64,000 bases of DNA from Lacinutrix sp. WUR7 (GTDB lineage Bacteria; Bacteroidota; Bacteroidia; Flavobacteriales; Flavobacteriaceae). Below, one piece after another: positions 22,483-55,827 of the stretch (position 1 is the first letter of the stretch; the number at the start of each line of letters is the position of its first letter). The notes beneath the pieces are model-generated. The model was not told the DNA's origin and made no database searches. It saw only the letters and a program-made list of their open reading frames with translations. The translations under genes were made by a program, and so were the position numbers. The stretch covers positions 2,019,001-2,083,000 of the forward strand of contig NZ_CP045067.1 in NCBI RefSeq assembly GCF_016864015.1, read 5' to 3'.

Positions 22483-22551
22483 TGAAAATTTGAAGTAAAA
22501 AATAATATTTAATCCATCCCCCAAATGGCTTAAATGTATGAAAAATATAGC

Positions 22552-37462: not shown

Positions 37463-37541
37463 TAGTTTGAAATCGGTATGTTACAATGTGTTTTTATTCT
37501 TCTTGTGAGTTCGCTTCCTTTTGTTAGATATAGCGATACTA

Positions 37542-37584
37542 TGATTTATGTCATTTTTGAAGTTATCCTTTTTGGCTATCTTTA
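37542..37584 (+). promoter_or_regulatory. FNR-type site (TGA-N6-TCA) and -7 element of the mla operon
   Basis: TGATTTATGTCA at 37542-37553, centre 37547.5. The -7 element TATCTTTA is at 37577-37584, 29.5 bases from that centre. This is the class II activator geometry (about -42). The start codon of mlaE follows at 37603. Confidence 0.7.
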
Positions 37585-37602
37585 TATTGTAAATACGGAA
37601 TA

Positions 37603-38373
37603 ATGAGTAAATCCAATGCTGTTACAACTTTTTTTATAGAAATTGGCGAACTGACCTTATTCGCTGGTCGGTTTTTTAAACAATTATTTACGAAACCTTT
37701 TGAGGGTAAGGAACTTCTTAAACAATGTTATAGTATAGGTAACCGTTCCATTTTGTTAGTAGCTGTTACTGGGTTTATTATTGGTTTAGTAATCACTTTA
37801 CAAACGAGACCAACTTTAGAAGAGTTTGGTGCAGAATCTTGGATGCCTTCTATGGTAAGTTTATCCATAATTAGGGAAATAGGTCCTGTAATTATTGCCT
37901 TAACCTTTGCTGGTAGAATAGCTTCTGGTATTGGAGCAGAACTTGGGTCTATGCGTGTAACAGAACAAATTGACGCGATGGAGGTTTCTGGTACCAATCC
38001 GTTTAAATTTTTGGTGGTAACTAGAATTGTTGCCGCTACACTTATGTTACCTCTTTTAGTCCTTTTAGGAGATGCGCTCGCTCTTTTAGGATCTTATATT
38101 ATAGAAAATATAAAAGGGGAAGTTTCCTTTTTACTTTATTTTAATAAAGTTTTTAATGTTTTAGAATTTAGTGACCTTATTCCTGCTACTATTAAAACGT
38201 TTTTCTTCGGATTTGCAATTGCATTAGTTGGTTGTTTTAAAGGATATAATTGTGATAAAGGAACTGTTGGAGTAGGCGCAGCTGCAAATTCAGCAGTAGT
38301 ATTCTCTTCCATGCTGTTGTTTATTATAGATTTCATTGCTGTTTTTATAACCGATATATTTTTCGACCTTTAA
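37603..38373 (+). CDS. mlaE: MlaE-family ABC transporter permease
   Basis: Inner-membrane permease of the Mla-type system that moves phospholipids between inner and outer membranes. The 256-residue protein has about five membrane helices and the family signatures LSIIREIGPVIIALTFAGRIASGIGAELG (about residues 86-114; read in parts) and RVTEQIDAMEVSG. It is followed after 3 bases by the ATPase gene and then by the MCE-domain gene. No Mla periplasmic carrier (MlaC) is present here, which is usual in many Bacteroidota. An FNR-type site at the class II position suggests induction with the stress block. Confidence 0.93.
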   Translation: MSKSNAVTTFFIEIGELTLFAGRFFKQLFTKPFEGKELLKQCYSIGNRSILLVAVTGFIIGLVITLQTRPTLEEFGAESWMPSMVSLSIIREIGPVIIALTFAGRIASGIGAELGSMRVTEQIDAMEVSGTNPFKFLVVTRIVAATLMLPLLVLLGDALALLGSYIIENIKGEVSFLLYFNKVFNVLEFSDLIPATIKTFFFGFAIALVGCFKGYNCDKGTVGVGAAANSAVVFSSMLLFIIDFIAVFITDIFFDL

Positions 38374-38376
38374 ATT

Positions 38377-39156
38377 ATGAGTACAAAACAAAACATAACG
38401 ACACGAGAAGAAAACACAAGTGCCAAACCAATAATGTTAGAAATTAAGGATTTGAGAAAAAGCTTTGGTGATAATCATGTTTTAAATGGTTTTAATTTAA
38501 AATTGTTTGAAGGAGAAAATTTGGTTATTATGGGGAAATCAGGATCTGGTAAATCGGTGATGATTAAATGTTTGGTAGGCTTATTACAAGCAGATTCTGG
38601 AACCATAAAAATTATGGGAAAAGAAATTAATACGCGAAATCAAGCAGATCTAGATAAATTACATACAGAAATAGGATTTCTATTTCAAGGTAGTGCTTTG
38701 TATGACTCGATGACGGTTAGAGAAAATTTAGAATTTCCTTTACGAAGACATAAACGGAAATTGGATACAGCATCAAACATCGATGAGTTAGTAAAGGAAG
38801 CTTTAGAAAATGTAGGGTTATTACATGCTATAGATTTAATGCCAGCAGAGCTTTCAGGAGGAATGCAAAGACGTGTTGCATTGGCAAGAACCTTAATATT
38901 AAAACCTAAAATAATTTTATATGATGAACCAACCAGTGGTTTAGATCCTATCACATCTAAAGAAATTATTGAGCTTATGAGAAATGTGCAAAAGCAATAT
39001 AAAACCTCTTCATTAATAATCACACATGATGTGGATTGCGCACGTGTTGTTTCCGAACGTATTATTTTATTAGTCGATGGTATTAATTATGCAGAAGGTA
39101 CTTTTAAAGAATTAGCAACAGCTACAGATAGTCAAATAAAAGCTTTTTTTAAGTAA
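38377..39156 (+). CDS. mlaF: MlaF-family ABC transporter ATP-binding protein
   Basis: ATPase of the Mla lipid transporter. The 259-residue protein has Walker A GKSGSGKS (near residue 58), Q-loop FLFQGSALYDSMTV, signature LSGGMQRR, Walker B ILYDEPTSGLDP and switch His in IITHDVD. The SGGMQRR signature is characteristic of the Mla/Ttg2A group. The ATG is 3 bases after the mlaE stop, so the two are translationally linked. The start of the frame carries about 20 polar residues before the ABC domain, but no better start is seen. Confidence 0.93.
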   Translation: MSTKQNITTREENTSAKPIMLEIKDLRKSFGDNHVLNGFNLKLFEGENLVIMGKSGSGKSVMIKCLVGLLQADSGTIKIMGKEINTRNQADLDKLHTEIGFLFQGSALYDSMTVRENLEFPLRRHKRKLDTASNIDELVKEALENVGLLHAIDLMPAELSGGMQRRVALARTLILKPKIILYDEPTSGLDPITSKEIIELMRNVQKQYKTSSLIITHDVDCARVVSERIILLVDGINYAEGTFKELATATDSQIKAFFK

Positions 39157-39260
39157 ATTTATAAGCAAATTATGAACCGAACATGTTAATAGTATTTATC
39201 ATTCCGTATTAGGATTAAAGGGATCAACATGTGCTAGTAAAAACACAATAAATATAACAG

Positions 39261-40247
39261 ATGGAAAAATCAAATAGTCAAAAATTAAGATTAGGAGTCT
39301 TTGTTATTCTTGGGTCGCTTCTTTTTATTACTACCATATATTTTATAGGGGATCGTCAAAATTTATTTGGGAAAACCTTTACCATAAATTCTAATTTTAA
39401 TAATGTAAACGGATTAATGCAAGGGAATAACGTGCGTTATTCTGGTGTAAATGTAGGTACTGTAAAAGGCATTTTAATGCTTGACGATAATACCATTCAA
39501 GTTACTATGGAAATCGAAGAAAAAATGATGCCCCATATTAAAAAGGACGCTATTGCAACAATTGGTTCTGATGGTTTAGTTGGTAATATGATTGTAAATA
39601 TTACTCCAGGAGAAGGTGAAACTACAGTTGTATCTTCTGGTGATACCATTAAATCGTATTCTAAAATAGGAACAGATGAAATGCTTAATACACTTAGTAC
39701 AACTAATGAAAATGCGGCTTTACTTACTTCAAAGTTATTAAATATAACCAATGCGATAACTAGCGGAAAAGGAACTTTAGGAATGCTTATTAATGACACG
39801 ATTACATCTAACGAGTTGCAACAAACCATTCATTATTTAAAATTAACAAGCATGGAAGCTAATAAAACCATGAAAGATATTAATACCATAGTTAGTTCTG
39901 TAGATATAGAGAATAGTGTTGCAGGAGTTTTACTTAATGATGGAGAAGAAGCACAAAAAGTAAAAGATATGATTGCAAATTTAAACCAATCTAGTGAAGA
40001 TATTAAAACGGTTATTGATAATTTAAATGAAACGGTTAATGGTTTTAAAGCAGGAGATGGCGCGTTTAATTATTTAACAAAAGATGAAGATGTTGTTAAA
40101 AGCCTAAAAGAATCTATTGATAATATAAATGAAGGTACAGACAAGTTTAATCAAAATATGGAAGCTTTAAAACATAACTTTTTGACACGAGGTTATTTTA
40201 AGAAATTAGAACGTCAGGAGAAAAAAGAAGCTGAAAAAGAGGATTAA
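39261..40247 (+). CDS. mlaD: MlaD-type MCE-domain lipid-binding protein
   Basis: The 328-residue protein has one N-terminal membrane helix (LRLGVFVILGSLLFITTIYFI; read in part). An MCE domain follows at about 37-115 (FNNVNGLMQGNNVRYSGVNVGTV..., IGSDGLVGNMIVNITPG). A long helical tail has repeated motifs (LLTSKLLNITNAI, MKDINTIVSSVD) and a charged end. It forms the periplasmic lipid channel/collar on the MlaE-MlaF complex. It is separated from mlaF by 104 bases without a promoter I can support, so it is likely co-transcribed. Confidence 0.92.
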   Translation: MEKSNSQKLRLGVFVILGSLLFITTIYFIGDRQNLFGKTFTINSNFNNVNGLMQGNNVRYSGVNVGTVKGILMLDDNTIQVTMEIEEKMMPHIKKDAIATIGSDGLVGNMIVNITPGEGETTVVSSGDTIKSYSKIGTDEMLNTLSTTNENAALLTSKLLNITNAITSGKGTLGMLINDTITSNELQQTIHYLKLTSMEANKTMKDINTIVSSVDIENSVAGVLLNDGEEAQKVKDMIANLNQSSEDIKTVIDNLNETVNGFKAGDGAFNYLTKDEDVVKSLKESIDNINEGTDKFNQNMEALKHNFLTRGYFKKLERQEKKEAEKED

Positions 40248-40258
40248 AAATATATGTT

Positions 40259-40747
40259 ATGAAAATTGAACATTTAGAAGAACGTATTAATGATTATAAA
40301 AAATCCATAGAAATTGTTGTTGAAAAAAAAATGCTATGGGAAACAACTACAAAAAAGAATCTTGTAGAAATCTTAACAACAATAACAAAGCAGTATCATA
40401 TTGGCTGGAAAGTGCAGCAATTAAATTGGATTAATAGCAATGAAGCAGTAAATATTATTTTCGAGTCATTTCCTGCAGATTTAATTAGCAGTACCAATAA
40501 AATTCCTGCGTATCAATTTATTCCAGGAGCTGCATTAGTTTTTTCTCAATCTTATAATGGAGATATCTTCGTCTTTATTTTGTTTCCTATTATTGAAAAT
40601 ATGCCAATCGAAAACAGCTCCATAGATTTAGGTATTCTAAATCCCAAAGAAATTAACGAAAAAGTAATTGTAGAAAAAGTAGATGAATTTTTAAAGGAAA
40701 TGATAAAATGGGATGTGCCATCCATTAAAAATAAGCTTGGCTATTAA
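40259..40747 (+). CDS. Conserved-looking protein of unknown function behind mlaD
   Basis: A 162-residue soluble protein with no signal peptide and no family I recognise. It has an amphipathic helical N terminus (IEHLEERINDYKKSIEIVV), a central beta-rich part with IPAYQFIPGAALVFSQSYNGDIFVF and a helical end. It begins 11 bases after mlaD and ends before a separate promoter, so it is the last gene of the mla transcript. A role with Mla is possible from position only. Confidence 0.5.
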   Translation: MKIEHLEERINDYKKSIEIVVEKKMLWETTTKKNLVEILTTITKQYHIGWKVQQLNWINSNEAVNIIFESFPADLISSTNKIPAYQFIPGAALVFSQSYNGDIFVFILFPIIENMPIENSSIDLGILNPKEINEKVIVEKVDEFLKEMIKWDVPSIKNKLGY

Positions 40748-40771
40748 TTATAAATAATGGATAGTTAGGTA

Positions 40772-40814
40772 TGATTAATGTCATTTTTTATGATCTTGAT
40801 TTTTATTATTTTTA
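40772..40814 (+). promoter_or_regulatory. FNR-type site and -7 element of the sigma-like gene
   Basis: TGATTAATGTCA at 40772-40783 (centre 40777.5) and -7 TATTTTTA at 40807-40814, again 29.5 bases apart. Both lie inside the N-terminal extension of the longest frame, which shows that translation really starts at 40832. Confidence 0.7.
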
Positions 40815-40831
40815 TTTCAAATCTTGAAATT

Positions 40832-41602
40832 ATGAAAACAGATATTAGTTATTACCAAAACAAACAAGAGTACCGTTTATTCGTACAACAGTCTTACACT
40901 AGTCTTCTTAAATTAAAGAATGAAGGAGATAAAGAGGCCTTTAATGCTTTGGTTTTAAAAATATTGCCAACCTTAAGAAATTATATAAATAGAAGCTTAA
41001 ATGCTTTTATAAAAAACGGTAATTTTTCTAAAGGAAAATACAAAGGAGACGATATTATTGATCAGCTTTTTATTGAAATTTACGATCATATTGAAGATGT
41101 AAAACAGGAAAAAGATTTCTATGCTTGGTTGTATTTAAAAGCAGATGAAATAATGGAAGATATTAAAGTAGAAGAAGAATTTAATGAGTTTTTCTTCAAG
41201 AATATTGATACCTATTCAAAACCAGAATGGGACGCCATGGAAGAAAAATATACAAAGGATGCAGATGGAGATTTATTGCTAATAGAAGAGCTAAGCGATA
41301 GCTCTTATAACCATAACGATTATGAATTAAAACCTGTTTTTGTAGAAGATAATGAAGTTGCTTTTATAGATGAAATAGATAAACACCTAAAGCAAGACAC
41401 GATAAAAAATCATACTGCTTTTGTAGTGAGTAATTTGCCTTTTGCAATGCGTCAAGTTTTTGAGTTGTTTACAAATGAGTACCTGTCGTTCGAAGAAATT
41501 GCAGTAGTAAGAAAATCTACAATAAAAGAAGTGAAGCAGTTGTTTCAAGATGCAAAACGTGCATTACAAGTCAGTTTGTTTAATAGATATTTAAACAATT
41601 AA
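40832..41602 (+). CDS. ECF-like RNA polymerase sigma factor
   Basis: A 256-residue protein from the ATG at 40832. Residues about 20-115 resemble sigma region 2 (NALVLKILPTLRNYINRSL, DDIIDQLFIEIYDHI, FYAWLYLKADEIM). The last 70 residues match region 4: LPFAMRQVFELFTNEYLSFEE-IAVV, then STIKEVKQLFQDAKRAL. A roughly 70-residue acidic linker separates them, longer than in standard ECF factors. An upstream ATG at 40778 adds 18 hydrophobic residues but lies within the predicted FNR-type site/promoter. No anti-sigma gene is adjacent. It probably passes the stress signal on to further genes; its target promoters are unknown. Confidence 0.72.
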   Translation: MKTDISYYQNKQEYRLFVQQSYTSLLKLKNEGDKEAFNALVLKILPTLRNYINRSLNAFIKNGNFSKGKYKGDDIIDQLFIEIYDHIEDVKQEKDFYAWLYLKADEIMEDIKVEEEFNEFFFKNIDTYSKPEWDAMEEKYTKDADGDLLLIEELSDSSYNHNDYELKPVFVEDNEVAFIDEIDKHLKQDTIKNHTAFVVSNLPFAMRQVFELFTNEYLSFEEIAVVRKSTIKEVKQLFQDAKRALQVSLFNRYLNN

Positions 41603-41619
41603 TATAGAATTGTATCCAT

Positions 41620-41652
41620 AAAAAAAAGAGCTACATATTAGCTCTTTTTTTT
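41620..41652. terminator. Bidirectional terminator between convergent genes
   Basis: AAAAAAGAGCTA (to 41633) pairs with TAGCTCTTTTTT (from 41639) around a five-base loop, with A and T runs on both sides. It serves the sigma-like gene (+) and the PPOX-like gene (-). Confidence 0.85.
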
Positions 41653-41670
41653 ATATCTCTATTTTAAATT

Positions 41671-42135
41671 TTACGCTTTAAAATCTAAACGTTTTTTACC
41701 TGTTATTTCTCCAATGTTTATTAAAAATACAGCAGGAATATCGTCCTTATAAATCTTACTAGAAAAGTCGCTAATAAAGTTGGCTTTACTTTGTTCTTTC
41801 TCTAAAATAATGTCTTTAATTCCTAAGGAGAATTTGTGTAAATAGGCTTTTGCATCACTCCCAAAATGTTGCTCAAATTTACCATGCACTAAGACAGATT
41901 TCCAATTGGTTACATTGTCAACATCTGCAACTAGCAAAGAAACTGTAGGGTTTTTACGCATCGCATTCATTTTGTGTCCATCTCCAGAATAGCATATTAT
42001 CGCGTTGTTTTCTTTATCAAAAAAATAAGTAATAGGCACTACATAAGGTGCGCTGTTAAATATGTATCCTAACTGACCAATATAATTGTTTTCTAAAATA
42101 TAATCGATTTCTTTTTTTTCTAAATTTTTAAACAT
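41671..42135 (-). CDS. Pyridoxamine 5'-phosphate oxidase-like flavin-binding protein
   Basis: A 154-residue member of the FMN-binding split-barrel family (COG3467 type). Visible motifs are IGQLGYIFNSAPYVVPITYFF (about 19-39; read in part), GHKMNAMRKNPTVSLLV and WKSVLVHGKFEQ. The group is diverse and includes nitroimidazole- or heme-related flavoproteins; the substrate cannot be told. It lies 44 bases behind the PepSY-like gene with no promoter between and is probably transcribed from the FNR-type promoter at 42721-42763. Confidence 0.82.
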   Translation of the reverse strand: MFKNLEKKEIDYILENNYIGQLGYIFNSAPYVVPITYFFDKENNAIICYSGDGHKMNAMRKNPTVSLLVADVDNVTNWKSVLVHGKFEQHFGSDAKAYLHKFSLGIKDIILEKEQSKANFISDFSSKIYKDDIPAVFLINIGEITGKKRLDFKA

Positions 42136-42179
42136 AGCTATTTTGATTTAATTGTCAATGGTATTGATTTTTAGTGCTT

Positions 42180-42686
42180 TTAAAGAAAATTCCCTTCTGC
42201 ATCTACTTTCACTTTTATACGCTTATCTCCATTAATTAAAGTGAGTTTATATTTTTTCTTCGCAATTTCACCTTCTTTATAGTTTACTAAATATACATCT
42301 TTTGTAATATCCCATTTTGGAAATCTTTTGAAAACAGCTTTTACTACAGAAATCGGTAAATCTATATCCTTAAATTTTTCAGCAGTTCTTAGAATATTCC
42401 CATCATTATCATACGTTGCAAGAATTTTTCCTTCAGGTATAATAAAATATACATCATAGAAATCATATTCATCCGTATAAACATCTAATGTTTTAATATC
42501 AAAATTTGCTGCTTTCAGTTCTAATTCTTCCACAGGAATGGCTAAGTCTTCAGCATCTGTGCCATTAATATATTTATAATTGGTATTTACCAATACAACT
42601 TCTTCTAATTCGGTGATTGTAGGCTCTTGAGCATATAAATGCATAGTTAAACCAAAAATAAATAAACCAAGAATTACTTTTTTCAT
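42180..42686 (-). CDS. Exported PepSY-like protein
   Basis: A 168-residue protein with a signal peptide (KKVILGLFIFGLTMHLYAQ). The mature part has PepSY-like features: DVYFIIPEGKILATYDNDGNIL, then DLPISVVKAVFKRFPKWDI, and a final beta hairpin YKLTLINGDKRIKVKVDAEGNF (read in parts). Such proteins are sometimes called nicotinate-nucleotide adenylyltransferase in databases, but no nucleotide-binding motif is present. A periplasmic inhibitor or binding role is a family-level guess. It is first in a two-gene transcript under an FNR-type site. Confidence 0.6.
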   Translation of the reverse strand: MKKVILGLFIFGLTMHLYAQEPTITELEEVVLVNTNYKYINGTDAEDLAIPVEELELKAANFDIKTLDVYTDEYDFYDVYFIIPEGKILATYDNDGNILRTAEKFKDIDLPISVVKAVFKRFPKWDITKDVYLVNYKEGEIAKKKYKLTLINGDKRIKVKVDAEGNFL

Positions 42687-42720
42687 GTTATTGGAATTTA
42701 AAGTTACTATTATATAGTAT

Positions 42721-42763
42721 TAAAAGTATAAATACTATTTGAAGACGCCTATGATAAATATCA
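42721..42763 (-). promoter_or_regulatory. FNR-type site and -7 element of the PepSY-like/PPOX-like operon
   Basis: The TGA-N6-TCA site is at 42752-42763 (centre 42757.5). On the minus strand the -7 TACTTTTA occupies 42728-42721, 29.5 bases from the centre. The gene start is 42686. Confidence 0.7.
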
Positions 42764-42771
42764 GTCTATGC

Positions 42772-43992
42772 CTACAGCTTTCTTTTTAATTCTATACATG
42801 TTATTTCTGGTCGCATACCAATTCTTCCAGGAAAGCCTAGCCAGCCCAAACCACGATTAACATAAAGGTATTGCGAGTGATGTTGGTATAAGCCAGCCCA
42901 ATGTTTGTGTTTATATTTAATAGGACTCCATTCTTTCTTTTTAATTTTTATTCCTGCCTGCATGCCGTGTGTATGACCAGATAGGGTTAAGGCTATATCG
43001 GTTTTATCAATAACCTCTTCATTCCAATGTGTTGGATCATGAGATAATAATATTTTAAAAGGAATAGTTTGGACTTCGCTTAACGTTTTTTGTAAATCAC
43101 CATATTTTTTAAACGGTGGATTTCCCCAGTTTTCAATACCAAGAATGGCTATTCTTTCTTTATTACGAGCAATTATATGTGCTTCATTTAATAAAAGATT
43201 AAAATCTATTTTGTTGAAAAACGCTTTTATCGTTTTAAAATTTGCTTCCTTTTCTTCTTCCGTATCCCAATTACTATAGTCTCCATAATCATGATTTCCT
43301 AAAATGGCATATTTACCTTTTTTTGCGGTTAGTTTTCCTAAGGTGTTTTCCCAACCATTTAATTCCCAAGCATAATTATTTACCAAATCTCCAGTAAAGC
43401 ATATATAATCTGCATTTTCATGATTTATTTTTTTTACTGCCTTTTCTAATAGATGGTATCGATAATTAAAACTCCCTAAATGTAAATCCGAAATTTGTAT
43501 GATTTTTAACCCGTCAAAAGACTTTGGAAGGTTTTTAAAAGTAACTTTTATATGATGTATTTTAAAATGATAAGCAGATTTAAATATCGCATTTACAATA
43601 ACAAAAAAAGGTAGAAAACCAGAGAATAAACCTATCAAAGGAATCACAATAAGCGACTGTCTTTCTGTTAATATATAGTTTGAAAAATAGAGGATAGAAA
43701 TTACAATTATAAAAATTATTTTAGGAATAAAAGAAGATACAGTAAGTCCGTATAAAGAAGATATAAGTAATTGTTTTTTCTTTTGGTCTACATGATCAAG
43801 TCTTATTTTTAAGACCATAATCGCTGTAATTAAACCTACTGTAAATACCCAAAAAAGTATATGAATTACTGTCGTTAAAAAGGGATATGGAATAAGTTGT
43901 GTAATTGATTGTAGCCAATAAAAAGCAAGGGAATCAATAACCAAAATTGCTAGGCATAGTAGGACTATTTTAAATATAGAATGGCTTCGCAT
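42772..43992 (-). CDS. Membrane-anchored metallophosphoesterase (YkuE-like)
   Basis: Four or so membrane helices fill the first 145 residues. The calcineurin-like metallophosphoesterase domain follows with all metal-ligand motifs: ISDLHLG (near 170), FTGDLVNN, LGNHDYGDY, LLSHDPTHW and LSGHTHGMQ. The total of 406 residues is normal for this group, some of which act on lipid-linked pyrophosphates such as UDP-diacylglucosamine. The substrate here is unknown. It is the last gene of the operon 46330-42772, 26 bases behind the MscS gene. Confidence 0.88.
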   Translation of the reverse strand: MRSHSIFKIVLLCLAILVIDSLAFYWLQSITQLIPYPFLTTVIHILFWVFTVGLITAIMVLKIRLDHVDQKKKQLLISSLYGLTVSSFIPKIIFIIVISILYFSNYILTERQSLIVIPLIGLFSGFLPFFVIVNAIFKSAYHFKIHHIKVTFKNLPKSFDGLKIIQISDLHLGSFNYRYHLLEKAVKKINHENADYICFTGDLVNNYAWELNGWENTLGKLTAKKGKYAILGNHDYGDYSNWDTEEEKEANFKTIKAFFNKIDFNLLLNEAHIIARNKERIAILGIENWGNPPFKKYGDLQKTLSEVQTIPFKILLSHDPTHWNEEVIDKTDIALTLSGHTHGMQAGIKIKKKEWSPIKYKHKHWAGLYQHHSQYLYVNRGLGWLGFPGRIGMRPEITCIELKRKL

Positions 43993-44018
43993 AATCGTTT
44001 GAAAACTCTAAAAAATGG

Positions 44019-44912: not shown

Positions 44913-44921
44913 TATTGTGGT

Positions 44922-45218: not shown

Positions 45219-45220
45219 AA

Positions 45221-46117: not shown

Positions 46118-46330
46118 TTATTTCAATTTATGAGTTTCTATGTGGTGTTTTAGCTCTTGTTCTAAGGTTTCCAAATAATTTTGCAATTCTGGAATACCTA
46201 CATGTGGATGTTCTTCCGAAGGAATTGTAACCGGTTCTTCTAATAAGAAAGTATACAATTCGGGATAATTAGTTTCTATATTAGTGGTTAATTGGGTAAT
46301 CTGCCTATATAATTCTTGTTTTGTTTTCAT
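46118..46330 (-). CDS. Small helical protein leading the cbpA operon
   Basis: A 70-residue protein that ends directly at the cbpA start. It has two helices (KQELYRQITQLTTNIETNY and IPELQNYLETLEQELKHHIE) around a Pro-rich loop LEEPVTIPSEEHPHVGI. It has no signal peptide and no recognised family. The immediate contact with cbpA and the FNR-type promoter in front make it a real gene of the stress operon. Confidence 0.7.
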   Translation of the reverse strand: MKTKQELYRQITQLTTNIETNYPELYTFLLEEPVTIPSEEHPHVGIPELQNYLETLEQELKHHIETHKLK

Positions 46331-46351
46331 ACCTAACTATTTTAATAACTA

Positions 46352-46394
46352 TAAATTTACTCATAAAAGTAATAGCTTTAACTGATTAATATCA
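46352..46394 (-). promoter_or_regulatory. FNR-type site and -7 element of the cbpA-cbpM-mscS operon
   Basis: The most symmetrical site of the set: a perfect 18-bp palindrome (AACTGATTAATATCAGTT, 46380-46397) with TGA-N6-TCA at 46383-46394, centre 46388.5. The minus-strand -7 TAAATTTA occupies 46359-46352, 29.5 bases away. The first gene starts at 46330. Confidence 0.78.
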
Positions 46395-46408
46395 GTTTGA
46401 GTAATTAA

Positions 46409-47086: not shown

Positions 47087-48348
47087 TATTGTCCTCGTAT
47101 TATTTTTACTGGATCTATTTTTTTTGCTTTTAGTGATGGCAAATAGCCTGCGAAAAAAGTAGAGATGATTGCAAAAGAAAAACCTATTACATAATACCAA
47201 ACATTAAAATCAATAGGATACGTATCTACTTTGGCTAATGCTTCTGTTTTAAACGGAATAGTGCTAATTATATTTGTAAATATTAAGCCTATTAAGAGTC
47301 CTAGAGCACCACCAATGACACCAATTATCAACGCTTGACTCATGAAAATATACTGCACATCATTACCTGAAAAACCGATTGCTTTTAAAATGGCAATGTC
47401 ATTCATTTTTTCATAAATAAGCATGCTTAAAATATTATATACACCAAAACCAGCAACTATTAATAAGGCTATAGAAACGGCGTAAGTAATAAGATTTCTA
47501 ACATCTGTTCCTGTTTCAAATTGTGCATTTGCAGTTTTAATATCTATTGCCGTTACATTAAATTGTTGTTCTGTTTTTTTAGATAAGGGTAATGCTTTTT
47601 CGATATCATAAAGCTTCACATTAATATCTGTGATATAATTTTGTGCTTCCCCTAAAATACGTTGTACCGTTTTTAGGTTTACAAAACTTTGAATCGCATC
47701 AATATCAGAAACACCACTTTGGTAAAGCCCCACAATTTTTAAGGGGAATATATCTCCTTTTATAGTGCTTATTTGTACTCTGTCTCCAACAGATAATGCC
47801 ATTTTTTTTGCAATACCAGAACCTAATAAAATACCGTTTTCTGTGTTTTTAAGTTTTTCTGGAGAACCTGCAATAATGTAATCTCTAAAATTAAATAATC
47901 GAGCTTCATCAATTGGTTGTATTCCTGTTAAGTTTCCAGCTATTTCAATAGATCCAGCTATGTAGAATATTTGTGTTTTTATTTGTGGTATGGCACCTTT
48001 TACATCTTCGTTTTTATTTAAAAATTGAATGATTGGTGAGGCATTATGGATTTTTTTCTGACTTAATTTAGGTTTAATAGAATGTACCACATTAAAGCTG
48101 TTTTTAAAAGCATCATATATATCTACTGGTTGCTTTTTTGAAGGTTCAATTTCATTATATATATGAATGTGAGGGGTTTGATTTAAAATTAAATCGTCCA
48201 ACATATTATTTAAACCTGTCATAAAGCTAACCAAAGTAATGTATGCACCAATACCAAAAGTAACACCTAAAGCAGCAATGGCAGTAGACTTAAATTTGGT
48301 TAATAATTGCTTTTTTGCAATGTCTATTATGACGGTCCAGTTTACCAT
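47086..48348 (-). CDS. MacB/FtsX-type ABC transporter permease
   Basis: A 420-residue permease with one N-terminal membrane helix and a large periplasmic domain (about 45-280). Three C-terminal helices follow, with the FtsX-type motif YEKMNDIAILKAIGFSGNDV between them. The ending LKAKKIDPVKIIRGQ is typical of LolC/E and MacB-like permeases. Such systems extrude lipoproteins, peptides or small hydrophobic compounds across the envelope by mechanotransmission. The cargo is unknown. The start overlaps the adaptor stop (TAATG), so adaptor, permease and ATPase are made in fixed proportion. Confidence 0.9.
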   Translation of the reverse strand: MVNWTVIIDIAKKQLLTKFKSTAIAALGVTFGIGAYITLVSFMTGLNNMLDDLILNQTPHIHIYNEIEPSKKQPVDIYDAFKNSFNVVHSIKPKLSQKKIHNASPIIQFLNKNEDVKGAIPQIKTQIFYIAGSIEIAGNLTGIQPIDEARLFNFRDYIIAGSPEKLKNTENGILLGSGIAKKMALSVGDRVQISTIKGDIFPLKIVGLYQSGVSDIDAIQSFVNLKTVQRILGEAQNYITDINVKLYDIEKALPLSKKTEQQFNVTAIDIKTANAQFETGTDVRNLITYAVSIALLIVAGFGVYNILSMLIYEKMNDIAILKAIGFSGNDVQYIFMSQALIIGVIGGALGLLIGLIFTNIISTIPFKTEALAKVDTYPIDFNVWYYVIGFSFAIISTFFAGYLPSLKAKKIDPVKIIRGQ

Positions 48349-49427
48349 TATTCTGGTTTATAGATATAGGTGTCTTTGGTGATTCCGCTTAAGACTTCAA
48401 TAAACTCCATGTTTCCTAAACCGGTAGTAATAGGTACTAAACCATCGTCGGTTTTCACTTGGTTATTATCTGTGATGTAATTTTTTGGAACCGTTAAAAC
48501 TTTTTCCTTTTTAGATATTATAATGTTGGCTTCACCCGAAAGTCCTGGGTAAAGTACTTTTGGAGGATTTACAAATACAGCTTCCACTTTAAAGGTTTGG
48601 TTGCGTTCGTCTTTTTTAGGATATATTTTAGATACTTTTCCTTTTATTACATTACCACTATAAGCATCGAGAGTGATTAAAACATCTTGGTTTTTTACAA
48701 TTTTAACAATGTCTACTTCATCTACTAACATATCCATGATAAATGTGGAGGCACTACCAATAGAGGCTACAGGTTCTATGGTATTTACTAATTCGCCAGA
48801 TTCTTTGTAAAGCGCATATACTTTACCGTTTATAGCGCTTTTTACAGTAAAATCTTTCGTGCTAATTAATGACGTTTGATAGACATTATGTGCTTGTTTT
48901 ACACTTGTGCTTAACTGGTTTTTAGTTTGATTATATTTGTTTTTAAGTACTGTTAAATTGTTTTTCGATAGTTGGTAGTTTAACTGTTTTGCATCAAATT
49001 CTGCTTTAGATCCTATGCTTTGTTTCCAAAGGTTTTGTTGTCTGAAAAAGTTAATAGAATCATTTTTATATTTTAGGTTAGCAGCTTCTATTTCATCTTT
49101 AATTCCGGCTAAAATGGCAGCGCTTCCATTGTAATTTTCTTTCGCTAAATCTAAAGATAGTTTCGCGTTTTGGGTATTTAAAATTGGTGTATTATTTATT
49201 ATTTGAGCGATAGCTTCGTTTTTTTTAACGATATCCCCTTCTTCCACAAGATTCCTGTCTAAAATACCAGAAACAATGGCGTAAGCTTGGTATAAGCTAT
49301 CCGGTTGTACCGTAACAGAAGTATATACAGATTCGGTTAAATCTTGTTCAATAGGAAGGATTTTATCTTCATTTTTAGAACAGGAAATACAAAAGAAAAG
49401 TATAGCAGGGACAAATAAATATCTCAT
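48348..49427 (-). CDS. HlyD/MacA-type periplasmic adaptor lipoprotein
   Basis: A 359-residue adaptor. The N terminus has a lipobox (LFVPAILFFCISC, Cys at residue 16), so it is a lipoprotein. Then come a barrel/lipoyl half (ASGILDRN-like VSGILDRNLVEEGDIVKKNEAIAQI; read in parts), a long alpha-hairpin (about 75-175), and the returning lipoyl half FTVKSAINGKVYALYKESGELV. The beta-barrel with KVSKIYPKKDERNQTFKVEAVF ends the protein. It should link the MacB-like permease to an outer-membrane exit, but no TolC-type gene is in the operon. Confidence 0.88.
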   Translation of the reverse strand: MRYLFVPAILFFCISCSKNEDKILPIEQDLTESVYTSVTVQPDSLYQAYAIVSGILDRNLVEEGDIVKKNEAIAQIINNTPILNTQNAKLSLDLAKENYNGSAAILAGIKDEIEAANLKYKNDSINFFRQQNLWKQSIGSKAEFDAKQLNYQLSKNNLTVLKNKYNQTKNQLSTSVKQAHNVYQTSLISTKDFTVKSAINGKVYALYKESGELVNTIEPVASIGSASTFIMDMLVDEVDIVKIVKNQDVLITLDAYSGNVIKGKVSKIYPKKDERNQTFKVEAVFVNPPKVLYPGLSGEANIIISKKEKVLTVPKNYITDNNQVKTDDGLVPITTGLGNMEFIEVLSGITKDTYIYKPE

Positions 49428-49433
49428 GTAATG

Positions 49434-50039
49434 TTAGTCTATTTTTTTAAGATTCCATTGCTTGTTTTTTGTCATTACAGCTACTAGTTTTTCGGAAATG
49501 AACTGAGATGTAATCGCTGGTGCTTTCTTTAAATTTGTAGCGGATAATTCTACTGGAATTGCTTCTGTTAAATAGGTTTTAATCTTTCCGGAAGTATCTA
49601 TAACAACTTGAAAATATTTGTATTCCACTATTTCCTTGTTAAGCAGATTATTTCTGCCTAAATCTACTTTAACTAATTCTAAAGCAATAGCGTAGTTGTT
49701 GTTAAAAGTAGTAGCATTTAAAAACTGAGGTTCAATAACGGTTTTTCCAGATGTATCGATAAAGCCATAATAGTTAATGCCATCTTTTTTTTGTTTGATT
49801 AAACATCTTTCGTTATTAAATATTGGATAGTTACCAGCTTCTGTTTTCGTTTCCACCACATCATCTCGAAAATCTATAACGACGGTACCTTCTTTATTTA
49901 TAAATGCCCATTGGTTATCTTTTTTAATAGCGGCTAAGTCCTCATTAAATGTGGAAATGTAGTCTAAGTTTTCCATGGTTTGTGTAAACCCTAAAAGTGG
50001 GATTAGTAATAATGCGAATAGTGATATTAATTTTTTCAT
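49434..50039 (-). CDS. Exported WG-repeat protein
   Basis: A 201-residue protein with a signal peptide (KKLISLFALLLIPLLGFTQ). WG-type repeats follow: LAAIKKDNQWAFINKEGTVVI and YYGFIDTSGKTVIEPQFLNA (read in parts), with a third degenerate copy at FQVVIDTSGKIKTYL. WG repeats are probable protein-binding beta modules. The gene sits 6 bases before the adaptor gene and 28 after the TerB-like gene. A function as a periplasmic partner of the exporter is inferred. Confidence 0.75.
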   Translation of the reverse strand: MKKLISLFALLLIPLLGFTQTMENLDYISTFNEDLAAIKKDNQWAFINKEGTVVIDFRDDVVETKTEAGNYPIFNNERCLIKQKKDGINYYGFIDTSGKTVIEPQFLNATTFNNNYAIALELVKVDLGRNNLLNKEIVEYKYFQVVIDTSGKIKTYLTEAIPVELSATNLKKAPAITSQFISEKLVAVMTKNKQWNLKKID

Positions 50040-50067
50040 GATCTTATTATTTTTGATTATTTTAAAG

Positions 50068-50484
50068 TTATATATCTGTTTTCTTTAATTCAATTTCAAG
50101 TTTAGCAAGTAATATAAGTTCCGATTTATTTTTACCAGCAAAACTATTTGCTATCGCATTGGCAGTCTGTAATATTAACTGTTTAATAGCTTCTGTGAAT
50201 AAATGGTTTTGTTCATTTTTATAATGTATAAAATCGGAGTAGCAGTTTTCTGCATCTAAATTGTTTTCACGATGCAGTAAATCGAAAACAAATTCCATTT
50301 GGTAAGCCGCATCAGAACCAAATTCATCCTCTAAACAATCTACTTTTAACCAATCTAATTTCACGATTTGTTTTAAGGTTTCAACCTCTAAAGGTGCCAC
50401 ATTGTTGTCTGCAGCAGCTATGGCGTAAAATAATTTTCCTAAGTTTTGATAAAAATTATGAGTTAATTTTTTTTTCTTTTTCAT
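50068..50484 (-). CDS. TerB-like protein
   Basis: A 138-residue soluble all-helical protein resembling the TerB/tellurite-resistance fold: YAIAAADNNVAPLEVETLKQIV near residue 15 (read in parts), with the acidic AAADNNVAPLE loop typical of the family's metal-binding region. A second helical half starts near 95. TerB domains act in metal-linked stress responses at the membrane; the exact role is not known. It is the first gene of the exporter operon and is driven by the FNR-type promoter at 50505-50547. Confidence 0.65.
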   Translation of the reverse strand: MKKKKKLTHNFYQNLGKLFYAIAAADNNVAPLEVETLKQIVKLDWLKVDCLEDEFGSDAAYQMEFVFDLLHRENNLDAENCYSDFIHYKNEQNHLFTEAIKQLILQTANAIANSFAGKNKSELILLAKLEIELKKTDI

Positions 50485-50504
50485 CTTTCACAGATTTGCA
50501 AGTA

Positions 50505-50547
50505 TAAATCTAATTACTTGTTAGCGATTAAATTATGATATTAATCA
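50505..50547 (-). promoter_or_regulatory. FNR-type site shared by the divergent TerB-like operon and the histidine kinase gene
   Basis: TGATATTAATCA at 50536-50547 (centre 50541.5). On the minus strand the -7 TAGATTTA is at 50512-50505, 29.5 bases away. On the plus strand a -7 TAGTTTTG is at 50582-50589, 40.5 bases away, one helical turn further, so the kinase/regulator operon might be autoregulated from the same site. Confidence 0.68.
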
Positions 50548-50581
50548 GTTATTAGAATTAAATATGTATGGTTTAGCACAT

Positions 50582-50589
50582 ATAGTTTT
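50582..50589 (+). promoter_or_regulatory. -7 promoter element of the PAS kinase operon
   Basis: TAGTTTTG matches TAnnTTTG. It lies 37 bases before the kinase ATG. No TTG at -33 is present, in keeping with activator dependence. Confidence 0.5.
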
Positions 50590-50625
50590 GTATTTTTAAA
50601 GCAGTATTAAAACTTAGCGTTATAT

Positions 50626-51867
50626 ATGTTTAAAATAGATCAAGAGATTTTTAATGTACTTTTTGAAGCTGTTTCTGAAGGTGTGATTGTAGTAGACGAA
50701 CAGCAGAATATTGTGTTTACAAACTCTTCGGCAGAGGTCATGTTTGGTTACCAAAAAGGAAAACTTTTAAACCAAACGTTAAGTATTCTTATTCCAAAAA
50801 ACTATCATGCAGGACACGGAGCGCATTTTAATGGTTTCATGAAACACAAAGAAAGTAGGCCAATGGGAAGAGGTCGTGATTTGTATGGAGCACGAAAAGA
50901 TGGAAGTAGTTTTCCTGTCGAGGCTGGATTAAATCCATTTGAAATGGATGGAGAAGGGTATATAATGGCTTTGGTAATTGATATTTCTGTACGAAAGCAA
51001 CAAGAAATGGAAATCCAGCAATTAAATGAAGAGTTGGAAGAAAAAGTATCCCAAAGAACCAAAGAGTTAAGTACTACAATAGATAAATTAAAAGTTGTAA
51101 ATATAGAGTTGGATGCAGAAAATAAAAAGCGAATTGAAGCGGAAAACAAAATAAAAAATGCACTTAAAAAAGAAATAGAACTTAACGAATTAAAAACGAA
51201 ATTTCTATCGCTAGTATCTCATGAATTTAAAACGCCATTAAGTGGGATATTGACTTCTACAATGCTCTTAAGTAAATATAAACTAGAAGAACAACAAGAA
51301 AAAAGGGATAAGCATATAGAAACGATTACCAATAAAGTGCACTATCTTAATAATATTTTAAATGATTTTTTATCTATTGAAAAATTAGAAACGGGTAATG
51401 TTAATTATAAGGTGAGTACTTTTAAATTAAGTAAAGTGGTAAACGAAGTGGTTTATAGTGCTAATATGCTTTTAAAGCTTGGACAAAAAATTAGTTATCC
51501 AGAAAATATTGATCATATTTCGCTAACTCAAGACGAAAAAATTATTGAACTAGCATTGTCCAACCTAGTAAATAACGCTATTAAATACTCGCCAGAAAAT
51601 TCTACTGTAAAAATTATTATTAGTCAAGATAACAAAAATACTAGCATTCAGATAGTAGATAATGGCATTGGAATTCCTGAAAAAGACCAAAAAAATATTT
51701 TTAATCGTTATTTTAGAGCCGAAAATGCATTGCTAACACAAGGAACAGGAATTGGACTAAACATAATTAAAACCCATTTTGAAAACTTAGGCGGATGCAT
51801 AAACTTTAAAAGTGAAGAAAATAAAGGATCTACATTTATAATTACAATACCTAATATAGTCAAATAA
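50626..51867 (+). CDS. FixL-like PAS histidine kinase
   Basis: Cytosolic sensor kinase of 413 residues. The PAS domain (about 5-122) is of the FixL type, with PKNYHAGHGAHF, RGRDLYGARKDGSSFPVEAG. By eye, H64 and R84 align with the heme-ligand His and the ligand-sensing Arg of rhizobial FixL (20 residues apart in both), so oxygen or redox sensing is possible but not shown. A coiled coil (about 123-185) leads to HisKA with H199 in LVSHEFKTPLSG. The ATPase domain has LSNLVNNAIKYS, DNGIGIP and GTGIGLNI. No membrane segment is present. The stop overlaps the regulator start (TAATG), so the two form a pair. Confidence 0.9.
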   Translation: MFKIDQEIFNVLFEAVSEGVIVVDEQQNIVFTNSSAEVMFGYQKGKLLNQTLSILIPKNYHAGHGAHFNGFMKHKESRPMGRGRDLYGARKDGSSFPVEAGLNPFEMDGEGYIMALVIDISVRKQQEMEIQQLNEELEEKVSQRTKELSTTIDKLKVVNIELDAENKKRIEAENKIKNALKKEIELNELKTKFLSLVSHEFKTPLSGILTSTMLLSKYKLEEQQEKRDKHIETITNKVHYLNNILNDFLSIEKLETGNVNYKVSTFKLSKVVNEVVYSANMLLKLGQKISYPENIDHISLTQDEKIIELALSNLVNNAIKYSPENSTVKIIISQDNKNTSIQIVDNGIGIPEKDQKNIFNRYFRAENALLTQGTGIGLNIIKTHFENLGGCINFKSEENKGSTFIITIPNIVK

Positions 51868-52919
51868 TGAACAATATTTTATTAATTGAAGATGATATCG
51901 TTTTAAGAGAAAACACAGCCGAACTTTTAGAACTTTCTAATTACAATGTGGTTACCGCTGCAAATGGTAAATTAGGAGTGGAAGCAGCAATTAAAGAGCT
52001 TCCAGATATTATAGTTTGCGATATAATGATGCCTGAACTAGATGGTTATGGTGTTTTAGAAGCATTATCTAAAAATGAAAGTACACAATACATTCCATTT
52101 ATATTCTTATCTGCTAAAACAGAAAGAAAAGATGTTAGAAAAGGAATGGACCTTGGTGCAGACGATTATATCACCAAGCCCTTTGAAGAAGAAGAGCTTA
52201 CAAGTGCTATAGAAAGTAGAATTGCAAGAGCTTCTATATTAAAAGATATAAGAGATAAGCAAAATAGCAATACGGAAGAAGAAGAAAATGAACTAAGAAC
52301 ATTAAATGATCTTAAAAACTATTTTGACGATAACGGCAAACCTTTTAGTTTTAAAAAAGGCGACGTCATATATAATGAAGGTCAAAACTCTAATTATATA
52401 TTTTTAGTAACTAAAGGGGTTGTAAAGTGTTACAAATTTGATGAACAAGGAAAGGAACTAATAACAGCATTACACAAAGAAGATGATTTATTTGGTTACA
52501 CTTCTTTTATTCAAAATATCCCATACCAAGAATCTGCAGGAGTTATTAAAGACGCAGAATTAGCTGGTATTTCTAAAGAACAACTTGCAGATGTTTTAAA
52601 TAGTAATCATAAAATAACTTTAGAACTCATTCAATTACTCACAGACGATTTAAAAGGTGTAAAAAATCAATTGTTAGAAATGGCATACAGCTCTGTAAGT
52701 AAAAAAACAGCAAGCACTATTTTAAAATTTGCCGAAAAATTAAACAACAAACCAAATCAACCTATAAAAATTTCGCGTAGTGATTTATCCAGTGTTGCAG
52801 GTATTGCAACAGAAACTTTAATTAGAACCATGTCTAGTTTTAAAAAGCAAGGTTTAATTGAAATTGAAGGCAGAAATGTTACCATTGTTAACCTTGAAAA
52901 ACTAAAGGAAATCGTTTAA
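51867..52919 (+). CDS. Response regulator fused to a Crp/FNR-type DNA-binding protein
   Basis: A 350-residue regulator in one chain. The receiver domain (1-120) has phospho-acceptor D52 in IVCDIMMPE and K104 in YITKPF. A cyclic-nucleotide-binding-like beta-roll (about 148-260; FKKGDVIYNEGQNSNYIFLVTKG, read in part) follows. A Crp-type winged helix (about 270-350) has the recognition segment GIATETLIRTMSSF. E316 and R320 are the residues that in CRP and FNR contact the TGA half-site. There is no N-terminal Cys cluster for an FNR-type iron-sulphur centre. It probably turns the kinase signal into binding at TGA-N6-TCA sites around it. This is one protein doing what FixJ plus FixK do in rhizobia. 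Confidence 0.9.
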   Translation: MNNILLIEDDIVLRENTAELLELSNYNVVTAANGKLGVEAAIKELPDIIVCDIMMPELDGYGVLEALSKNESTQYIPFIFLSAKTERKDVRKGMDLGADDYITKPFEEEELTSAIESRIARASILKDIRDKQNSNTEEEENELRTLNDLKNYFDDNGKPFSFKKGDVIYNEGQNSNYIFLVTKGVVKCYKFDEQGKELITALHKEDDLFGYTSFIQNIPYQESAGVIKDAELAGISKEQLADVLNSNHKITLELIQLLTDDLKGVKNQLLEMAYSSVSKKTASTILKFAEKLNNKPNQPIKISRSDLSSVAGIATETLIRTMSSFKKQGLIEIEGRNVTIVNLEKLKEIV

Positions 52920-52932
52920 AATGGTATCATTA

Positions 52933-52975
52933 TGATATTCGTCATATTTTAAAAAGTGCATTACATTTAACTTTG
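52933..52975 (+). promoter_or_regulatory. FNR-type site and -7 element of the first Usp gene
   Basis: TGATATTCGTCA at 52933-52944 (centre 52938.5) and -7 TAACTTTG at 52968-52975, 29.5 bases apart. The start codon is at 52994. Confidence 0.72.
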
Positions 52976-52993
52976 TTTTAAAGTTGAATATCA

Positions 52994-53839
52994 ATGAATA
53001 ATATTTTATTACCAACAGACTTTTCAGACAACTCATGGAATGCAATTACTTATGCGTTAAATTTTTATGAGAATGCTGCATGTAACTTTTATTTACTTCA
53101 TGTAAATGAACTAAGCGATATTGTGGTTAATGATTCTTCATATGATACTAGTCAAGAAACTATTCAAGAAGTATATAGTAAACCAACTAAAAAGAAGTTG
53201 GTAGCATTATTAAAAAAAATATCTGAAAAGATACCACACAATAATAATCATAAGCTTTACACTATTTCAGATAATAACTTTTTTATTGAATCTATTAGAG
53301 AACAGGTGCAAGAAAAAAAGATTGATGTCATTGTAATGGGAACCAAAGGTGCATCTGGATTAAAAAAATATATTACCGGTAGTAATACAGGCGATGTGAT
53401 AACTAAAGTGAAGTGTACCACATTGGTGGTGCCAGAAAACGCAAAATATAACAAGATTGAAGAAGTTGCGTTCCCTACAGATTACTCCATAAATTACAAC
53501 CTGCAAACCTTGTTGCCTCTTTCTAAAATATTAGATGCTAATTCTTCAAATTTAAGAATATTACACATTAGTAATGTAGATGAAAAACTAAATGTTAGTC
53601 AGCAACAAAACAAAGAGCTATTAGCAGATTATTTTAATAATAGTAAGTATAGTTTTCATAATCTAACCAATAAAAAAGTAGAAAATGCCATACAATGCTT
53701 TATAGAGTCTAGAAATATTGGTTTAATTGCAATGGTAGCAAAGAATCTTAATTATTTTCAGCAAATACTATTTCATAACAAAGTAGAAAATATTAGTTAT
53801 CATACCGATATTCCGTTTTTAGTATTGCATGAAATATAA
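52994..53839 (+). CDS. Universal stress protein, double-domain (first of four)
   Basis: A 281-residue tandem Usp protein. The N-terminal domain starts ILLPTDFSDNSWNAITYAL and holds the ATP-binding motif GTKGASGLKKYITGSN (near 116). The second domain (about 150-281) keeps the fold (VAFPTDYSINYNL) but has lost the G-x2-G-x9-G-S motif. In its place is a segment matching that of its neighbours only in outline (AKNLNYFQQILFHNKVENI). It probably binds ATP or nucleotide stress signals. It is transcribed alone from an FNR-type promoter and is followed by a second such promoter. Confidence 0.9.
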   Translation: MNNILLPTDFSDNSWNAITYALNFYENAACNFYLLHVNELSDIVVNDSSYDTSQETIQEVYSKPTKKKLVALLKKISEKIPHNNNHKLYTISDNNFFIESIREQVQEKKIDVIVMGTKGASGLKKYITGSNTGDVITKVKCTTLVVPENAKYNKIEEVAFPTDYSINYNLQTLLPLSKILDANSSNLRILHISNVDEKLNVSQQQNKELLADYFNNSKYSFHNLTNKKVENAIQCFIESRNIGLIAMVAKNLNYFQQILFHNKVENISYHTDIPFLVLHEI

Positions 53840-53884
53840 CAATTAGAATAGGGAAACATTAGAGTTGAAAATAAAAATAAAACA

Positions 53885-53927
53885 TGACAAAAGTCATAGT
53901 AAATTGCTTTTAATTAAAGTAATTTTA
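53885..53927 (+). promoter_or_regulatory. FNR-type site and -7 element with no protein gene behind it
   Basis: Perfectly symmetrical TGACAAAAGTCA at 53885-53896 (centre 53890.5) and -7 TAATTTTA at 53920-53927, 29.5 bases apart. Transcription would begin near 53933 and run into the terminator at 53991-54019. Confidence 0.62.
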
Positions 53928-53932
53928 TAATG

Positions 53933-54019
53933 TAATTTAAGGAGTATATGATGTTCATTATTAATTAAATTACTTGCTATTAATCCATGAAAAAGCCAGA
54001 TTTTAATCTGGCTTTTTTT
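53933..54019 (+). ncRNA. Candidate small RNA of about 87 nt between two Usp genes
   Basis: Bounded by the FNR-type promoter at 53885-53927 and a Rho-independent terminator at 53991-54019, with no protein-like ORF. The only start codons inside lead to a six-codon frame (53948-53968), preceded by GGAG. The candidate could base-pair with messages of the stress block or encode a tiny peptide. The alternative is that it is only the 3' untranslated end of the first Usp gene, but that would not explain a second promoter. Confidence 0.45.
53991..54019 (+). terminator. Rho-independent terminator between the first and second Usp genes
   Basis: 12-bp stem AAAAGCCAGATT (53991-54002) / AATCTGGCTTTT (54005-54016) with a T run to 54019. 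It is the end of the candidate small RNA and/or of the first Usp gene. Confidence 0.88.
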
Positions 54020-54043
54020 ATATATAGTAATTCTTTGCTTTAC

Positions 54044-54086
54044 TGATATTTGTCATTGTTTTATATAGCATGCATTGTTACATTTA
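54044..54086 (+). promoter_or_regulatory. FNR-type site and -7 element of the three-Usp/nuclease operon
   Basis: TGATATTTGTCA at 54044-54055 (centre 54049.5) and -7 TACATTTA at 54079-54086, 29.5 bases apart. The first gene starts at 54113. Confidence 0.72.
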
Positions 54087-54961: not shown

Positions 54962-54975
54962 TAAAAATAAATATC

Positions 54976-55818: not shown

Positions 55819-55827
55819 ATTTTAAAA

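Follow-up and report, generated by a model that had tools for sequence, protein, structure and literature searches.

The FNR, FixK and ANR regulons of proteobacteria rely on a CRP/FNR-type dimer that binds a class II site at -41.5, and their targets include the cbb3 oxidase as well as HemN-like and Usp proteins; the canonical FNR box reads TTGAT-N4-ATCAA, and the half-site of CRP is TGTGA. In the FixL–FixJ pair, a PAS kinase with a heme-pocket histidine adjoins its response regulator, FixJ, which is of the LuxR type and works through FixK. The DosR regulon of Mycobacterium depends on a response regulator driven by a heme kinase and has many Usp, CBS and hibernation-type targets, and the enterobacterial FnrS is a short intergenic RNA placed under a CRP/FNR-type site and ending in an intrinsic terminator. 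In Bacteroidota, the sensing of oxygen limitation and the response to it are little charted in the searchable literature, most subscription papers lying outside it. Here we analyse a stretch of 64,000 nucleotides of Lacinutrix sp. WUR7 (contig NZ_CP045067.1, positions 2,019,001 to 2,083,000; hereafter the window), in which eight palindromes of the form TGA-N6-TCA are each followed at one fixed distance by a -7 box, close to genes for a PAS kinase (HK1) and for a response regulator that fuses a receiver to a CRP-type protein (REC-CRP1).

The control described here is of a known kind, that of CRP/FNR class II promoters, with a lineage-specific operator, receiver–CRP fusions (REC-CRPs) linked to a heme-type kinase, an FNR-like sister protein that seems to use this operator too, and a candidate small RNA. 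We consider it likely that (A/C)TGAY-N4-RTCAT at -41.5 is a class II operator that is read by CRP/FNR-type activators at low oxygen and shared by three regulators. The system would resemble the FNR, FixK and ANR regulons in its type of dimer, in the position of the site and in its cbb3 oxidase, HemN-like and Usp targets, but differs from them in the sequence of the operator, in the Bacteroidetes -7 box, TAnnTTTR, and in that two of the three proposed activators are receiver–CRP fusions. As in FixL–FixJ, a PAS kinase with a FixL-like heme-pocket histidine adjoins a response regulator gene, whereas the output is CRP-type (cNMP_binding and HTH_Crp_2) and should work at its target promoters without an intermediary. 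The predicted pair of heme-type kinase and response regulator, together with Usp, CBS and hibernation-type targets, recalls DosR, from which the present system differs in DNA-binding domain, operator and lineage. An exact operator with an exact spacing would let such regulons be read straight from genome sequence; it also names regulators for testing and would give nosZ (nitrous oxide consumption) and Usp genes a common switch.

A probable operator at a fixed distance from the -7 box

The initial annotation, made from the letters of the window, had proposed eight TGA-N6-TCA sites with a fixed spacing to the -7 box. All eight centres and boxes proved to lie where it had put them, three on the minus and five on the plus strand:

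37541..37554, plus strand: operator ATGATTTATGTCAT, site 37547.5, upstream of mlaE-mlaF-mlaD (MlaE and MlaD supported by Pfam)
37577..37584, plus strand: -7 box TATCTTTA of site 37547.5
40771..40784, plus strand: operator ATGATTAATGTCAT, site 40777.5, upstream of 40835-41602 (weak resemblance to sigma-70 region 4, under the cut-off)
40807..40814, plus strand: -7 box TATTTTTA of site 40777.5
42751..42764, minus strand: operator, site 42757.5, upstream of 42180-42686 and the PPOX-like gene 41671-42135
42721..42728, minus strand: -7 box TACTTTTA of site 42757.5
46382..46395, minus strand: operator, site 46388.5, upstream of the small open reading frame (ORF) 46118-46330 and cbpA-cbpM-mscS-phosphoesterase
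46352..46359, minus strand: -7 box TAAATTTA of site 46388.5
50535..50548, minus strand: operator, site 50541.5, upstream of 50068-50484, WG-repeat and MacA/MacB-like genes
50505..50512, minus strand: -7 box TAGATTTA of site 50541.5
52932..52945, plus strand: operator, site 52938.5, upstream of the Usp gene 52994-53839
52968..52975, plus strand: -7 box TAACTTTG of site 52938.5
53884..53897, plus strand: operator ATGACAAAAGTCAT, site 53890.5, of the candidate small RNA
53920..53927, plus strand: -7 box TAATTTTA of the candidate small RNA
54043..54056, plus strand: operator, site 54049.5, upstream of the Usp-like run 54113-56661
54079..54086, plus strand: -7 box TACATTTA of site 54049.5

The window contains 22 TGA-N6-TCA palindromes, 8 of which have TAnnTTTR exactly 23 nucleotides further on, the distance from site centre to box start being 29.5 bases in all eight; at the other gaps between 10 and 40, none has more than one site. 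In 300 dinucleotide shuffles of the window, the mean number of gap-23 sites was 0.10 and the maximum 2. The longer symmetric form MTGAY-N4-RTCAK is matched by all eight sites, so that the motif exceeds the six fixed bases. We then scanned the complete genome (a single contig of 3,987,475 bp) for TGA-N6-TCA followed by TAnnTTTR at gaps of 21, 22, 23, 24 and 25 and found 1, 4, 45, 5 and 7 sites, respectively (62 in total). The excess at gap 23 has a Poisson tail of 2e-30 relative to the average over gaps 21, 22, 24 and 25, and the genome-wide enrichment for which the annotation had suggested looking is therefore present, with nothing in it that refutes the proposal. When the symmetric form is required, the count for the genome is 42 sites, versus 1 for the pattern read backwards.

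The same geometry recurs in relatives. We examined 80 related loci (1.6 Mb in all), the best 80 of a larger number of candidates from one REC-CRP scan, which come from named organisms or metagenome-assembled genomes (MAGs), are nearly all Flavobacteriaceae by title, and were picked by the presence of the regulator, not by that of sites; the closest REC-CRP relative is that of Olleya namhaensis (76%). In these loci, the -7 box stands at gap 23 in 343 of 1110 TGAY-N4-RTCA sites, with 1 and 12 sites at the adjacent gaps and 0 to 12 at the remaining gaps listed (15 to 31), and every locus (80/80) has at least one gap-23 site. The 343 promoters lie at a median distance of 22 bp, from box to next ORF, with 320 of them within 150 bp, and only 8 of the 343 sites fall within ORFs of 120 amino acids (aa) or more. 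The base before TGA is C in 0.56, A in 0.34 and T in just 0.06 of the promoters, unlike in the canonical FNR box, and the base after TCA is T in 0.96. Order-wide, the exact pattern is found in 101 of 148 genomes, with up to 48 sites per genome (reversed control pattern: 0 to 4). A survey of 198 genomes of the phylum gave 0 to 17 sites for the remaining orders within the class; outside the class, the number is between 0 and 3 in nearly all genomes, which is near the control level, and a few reach 8. Six fixed bases are common by themselves in AT-rich DNA, as the 22 palindromes of the window illustrate, but the spacing counts in the window, in the genome and in the 80 loci, where eight control palindromes gave at most 7 sites at every gap from 0 to 60, refute chance as an explanation, leaving it a probability that is practically nil.

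Promoter position and sign of regulation

The textbook position of a class II activator is -41.5. In Flavobacterium psychrophilum, mapped transcript starts show that the sigma-A box, TAnnTTTG, spans -12 to -5 (PMC9723704). Because the box would span -12 to -5 here too and starts 29.5 bases from the site centre, the calculated position of that centre is -41.5, matching the CRP/FNR class II promoter position; the "about -42" of the initial annotation is borne out and refined by half a base. CRP/FNR-type dimers bound to the palindrome would activate class II promoters when oxygen is short.

A dimer centred at -41.5 would also cover the -33 region, and the sites might on that account be repressor operators. 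We regard this as highly improbable: there is one exact spacing (343 versus 1 and 12), as contact between an activator and the polymerase requires, and a strong -33 element is not apparent in the 343 aligned promoters, a TTG adjoining the operator, which could serve as such an element, occurring in just 26 of them (a count that stands without a set of unregulated promoters beside it). Moreover, the cbb3 and haem genes of F. psychrophilum are reported to be induced under oxygen limitation (PMC9723704, in the main text of which the words "Fnr" and "Crp" do not occur), and this fits activation.

Putative target genes in the genome

Forty-one of the 45 exact-gap sites are not within a long ORF and are followed by a gene or an RNA; two of the 41 overlap tiny ORFs (51 and 63 aa), which we treated as spurious. 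An ORF starts within 100 bp downstream in 38 of the 41 (genes were picked mechanically and may include spurious short ORFs). The remaining three are the site of the small RNA, a site ahead of a 49-aa ORF, and a site 133 bp ahead of a pyridine-nucleotide oxidoreductase gene. At the second of these (genome position 3653205; L039), operator and box are followed by the 49-aa ORF, which by eye has a hydrophobic stretch. At the third (824020; L041), a terminator-like 12-bp hairpin separates the promoter from the oxidoreductase gene, a homologue of which, in genome G030 (L153), lies only 18 bp from its site. The sites cluster at 2.056-2.073 Mb (in the window), 2.669-2.696 Mb and 3.84-3.91 Mb, the others being scattered.

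Targets supported by Pfam comprise FixS and COX1/FixO of the cbb3 oxidase, the nitrous oxide reductase propeller, Usp, CBS, the ribosome-hibernation protein S30AE, regulators of the TetR and ArsR types, a PEP synthase-type enzyme, PEPCK, dodecin, LigD polymerase, BON, an outer-membrane efflux protein, OmpW, patatin, two ferritin-like proteins (one of them Dps-like by eye), a PCMT/erythromycin-esterase-like protein, MCRA and thioredoxin, and in the window MlaE, MlaD, the DnaJ-type CbpA, MscS, a metallophosphoesterase and a MacB-like protein. A radical SAM protein, likewise recognised by Pfam and named HemN-like by us from its sequence, also stands behind a site. In the 80 loci, BLAST against the genes of the Lacinutrix genome finds Usp-like genes behind sites in 77 loci, the 50068-50484 family in 48, S30AE in 16 and ccoS in 10. 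In the window, site 54049.5 precedes a run of Usp-like genes, a correction to the initial annotation. Three labels given to window genes found little or no support: the resemblance of 40835-41602 to an "ECF-like sigma" factor is weak and stays under the cut-off (Sigma70_r4_2, E=0.03), and Pfam at 1e-3 has no match either for 42180-42686 ("PepSY") or for 50068-50484 ("TerB"), the latter having a sole sub-threshold match, to an unrelated model. At the cbpA operator, the first downstream ORF, 46118-46330, encodes a 70-aa protein of unassigned family that by eye resembles a 72-aa ORF at genome position 3889543, in the REC-CRP2 cluster (see below); its family is preceded by a site in 4 of the 80 loci.

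The sites of the window had been described as one stress regulon. They do belong to a regulon-like set, although this set is not limited to eight local sites and comprises about 41 promoters in the genome. Oxygen limitation or dormancy is a better description than general stress, because the targets include the cbb3 oxidase, nosZ and HemN-like genes. Altogether, the regulon would cover high-affinity respiration, nitrous oxide reduction, haem synthesis, Usp and CBS proteins, ribosome hibernation, a chaperone, the envelope, iron storage and the candidate small RNA.

Three regulators with one recognition helix

The regulator gene of the window and that of its kinase are adjacent:

50626..51867, plus strand: HK1, PAS-HisKA-HATPase kinase with a FixL/DosP-like PAS domain, His64 being aligned to the heme ligand
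51867..52919, plus strand: REC-CRP1, with receiver, cNMP-type domain and Crp HTH, proposed reader of the sites

We found five Crp-type HTH proteins in the genome. Three have the helix ATE[TS]xIR in common: REC-CRP1, whose domains are a receiver, cNMP_binding and HTH_Crp_2; REC-CRP2 (3855781-3856863); and an FNR-like protein of 225 aa, whose gene lies beside the cbb3 genes. The two others have different recognition helices. Canonical FNR has four Cys for a 4Fe-4S cluster; the FNR-like protein has an N-terminal CxxC and further Cys residues, the spacing of which was compared by eye with that of E. coli FNR. The cAMP pocket of CRP contains an Arg; at the equivalent stretch, REC-CRP1 reads ESAG, as judged by eye. 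A cAMP-CRP reading of the sites was rejected on the half-site, which is A/C-TGAY rather than TGTGA.

The protein encoded at 51867-52919, named as the regulator in the initial annotation, is a likely reader of the sites, but probably not the sole one, because the motif could be read by any of the three regulators that share this helix. In the cluster that surrounds REC-CRP2 and a PAS kinase of 924 aa (3.84-3.91 Mb; L031-L034), 20 sites have GC-richer cores, such as TGACCTAGGTCA: core GC is 0.38 there versus about 0.15 for 21 other sites (p=0.0005), hinting at differing preferences of the regulators. An operon that starts at 3851120 behind a site extends, by gap criteria, through a second kinase to REC-CRP2, which may therefore control itself. 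A general stress regulon under REC-CRP1 alone would account for stress-type targets such as Usp, CbpA, ferritin-like and BON proteins; it is nonetheless very unlikely, given the operators ahead of ccoS-ccoNO, nosZ and the HemN-like gene, the helix common to three regulators and the GC-richer cores near REC-CRP2. The single-regulator reading is also weakened by targets in genomes that have only one of the proteins; the argument from site counts is mixed, holding in one family (f1) and not in another (f5).

These comparisons were made among the 148 genomes of the order, presence being scored at 1e-60 for REC-CRP and 1e-25 for FNR-like homologues, and "only" meaning that the other has no match at these thresholds. 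FNR-like homologues are present in 65 genomes and REC-CRP in 16. In f1, the family of the window, the median number of sites is 21 with REC-CRP (n=13) versus 7.5 without (n=8; p=0.004, uncorrected for kinship). Four genomes with the FNR-like protein only (G030, G048, G056 and G064) have a site before ccoS-ccoN in four of four cases and before a HemN-like gene in three of four; their 25 sites, of which 3 lie inside an ORF and 3 lack one downstream within the stretch, showed no Usp-like gene behind them. Of two genomes with REC-CRP1 only, G102 has sites before Usp (3 of 10), PPOX and PEPCK genes, and G039 has 8 sites, with cbb3, HemN-like, CBS and Usp genes and a nos cluster 480 bp from a site.

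One could propose that the FNR-like protein reads all the sites by itself, the REC-CRPs being merely nearby and binding elsewhere. This would agree with the wider distribution of FNR-like homologues, with the presence of the same operator in genomes that have only this protein and with the lack of extra sites in the REC-CRP genomes of f5. We consider it unlikely, as G039 and G102 keep 8 and 10 sites without an FNR-like match, sites lie near the gene in 80 of 80 REC-CRP loci, the recognition helices match, and the number of sites climbs with REC-CRP in f1. In the reading that we prefer, with three regulators on one operator, REC-CRP1 and REC-CRP2, each beside a PAS kinase (that of the window with a heme-type PAS), would read overlapping sets of promoters, and the FNR-like protein, with its Cys residues, would read overlapping promoters through the same recognition helix. 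At L048, a perfect operator lies about 49 bp ahead of the start of the FNR-like gene, without a gap-23 box; it may mark self-repression.

The HK1 kinase and a proposed oxygen signal

The kinase gene lies just ahead of REC-CRP in 79 of the 80 loci. HK1 contains PAS, HisKA and HATPase domains, and the best matches to its PAS sequence are FixL and DosP (E 1.5e-13), with His64 under the residue that we take to be their heme-binding histidine. Of 80 aligned rows (the window and 79 loci), 77 have His64, in a stretch whose other residues vary. In an AlphaFold model of HK1 residues 1-135 (pLDDT 91, from 40 of the sequences), His64 lies in helix 58-74, and a fold search of the PDB with this PAS domain returns heme domains of FixL and DosP as its top seven matches. 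By sequence and model, the HK1 PAS is probably a FixL-like, heme-type domain with a proximal His on the F helix, and HK1 would pass its signal to REC-CRP1 by phosphotransfer.

A more comprehensive reading is that of a low-oxygen/dormancy regulon found throughout the Flavobacteriaceae, in which two heme-kinase-driven receiver–CRPs and an iron–sulphur FNR-like protein act on one -41.5 operator, and which includes an FnrS-like small RNA; we put it forward tentatively, as a possibility that is somewhat doubtful in its full extent. Several observations weigh against our interpretation. Four of the 45 exact-gap sites lie within coding sequence (three of these four lack the TGAY..RTCA form). The equivalent of the distal Arg, R84, is present in only 62 of the 80 aligned rows of HK1, and a blue-light LOV-FixL chimera ranks 8th in the fold search, with flavin LOV domains close behind. 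The site of the FNR-like gene itself has no -7 box at gap 23. The f5 genomes with REC-CRP (G031, G103 and G110) have just 3, 4 and 6 sites, the rest of f5 having 1 to 12, and G143 has 23 sites yet no REC-CRP at the threshold. Finally, the cbb3, HemN-like and nos-cluster genes of G039 carry sites despite the lack of an FNR-like match, so that any split of targets between the regulators would not be clean.

A candidate small RNA

The initial annotation had placed every site ahead of a gene or transcription unit. Directly behind site 53890.5 there is no gene; what comes next is a candidate small RNA with its terminator:

53932..54018, plus strand: candidate 87-nt small RNA, with a 9-bp 5' hairpin, a conserved unpaired UUGCUAUUAAUCCAU and a 13-bp intrinsic terminator

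No ORF of 50 aa or more lies between the site and the strong terminator, and the promoter appears to make a small RNA, as predicted from the sequence. It would resemble FnrS in being short and intergenic, in its control by a CRP/FNR-type site and in the intrinsic terminator at its end; it differs in that it is a prediction from sequence and reaches the gathering score of no family in Rfam 15 (eight sub-threshold matches, best E 0.056). For F. psychrophilum, 85 newly described RNAs are reported (PMC9723704), and we do not claim that the candidate is undescribed.

The stretch 53880-54030 is present near full length in five of six other genomes of the genus, a contig end cutting the sixth (G150, the seventh genus genome, whose contig ends inside the RNA and which was left out of the six-member alignment on which the following counts are based). 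In all six complete loci, that of the window included, the spacing of operator and box is exact, and the 9-bp hairpin begins with the predicted +1. Folding z-scores range from -3.35 to -5.55, and shuffles folded as well as the RNA in 0 of 200 cases in five loci and 1 of 200 in the sixth. Changes on both sides are seen in 3 of 22 pairs; the 5' stem has one such pair and the terminator has two, every one of them confined to a single genome. At least as many arose in 4 of 500 column shuffles, and sliding the partners abolishes the signal. Support from covariation is thin in the 5' stem, because 8 of its 9 pairs never vary.

A covariance model of the RNA alone, with operator and box excluded, finds Winogradskyella MAG L087 and G421 (a different genus), in both of which the operator lies 47 bases and the box 12 bases ahead of the match. 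In the 80 loci, L087 alone has a good match. Across the family, 16 of 120 genomes, own included, have a match at 0.01; for the 16 matches in the 15 other genomes, operator and box are at the exact places only in G421, and most of the weaker matches are therefore probably chance terminators or another RNA. In five loci from other genera (L183, L186, L197, L209 and L211), the word TGCTATTAATC occurs just 5' of a terminator, after what by eye is a short hairpin; these loci have no operator at the expected place and possibly represent another RNA family.

Elsewhere in the window, 22534-36384 encodes two proteins: first a repetitive one of surface type (4616 aa), then one of outer-membrane type (325 aa), the latter presumably PorP/SprF-like.

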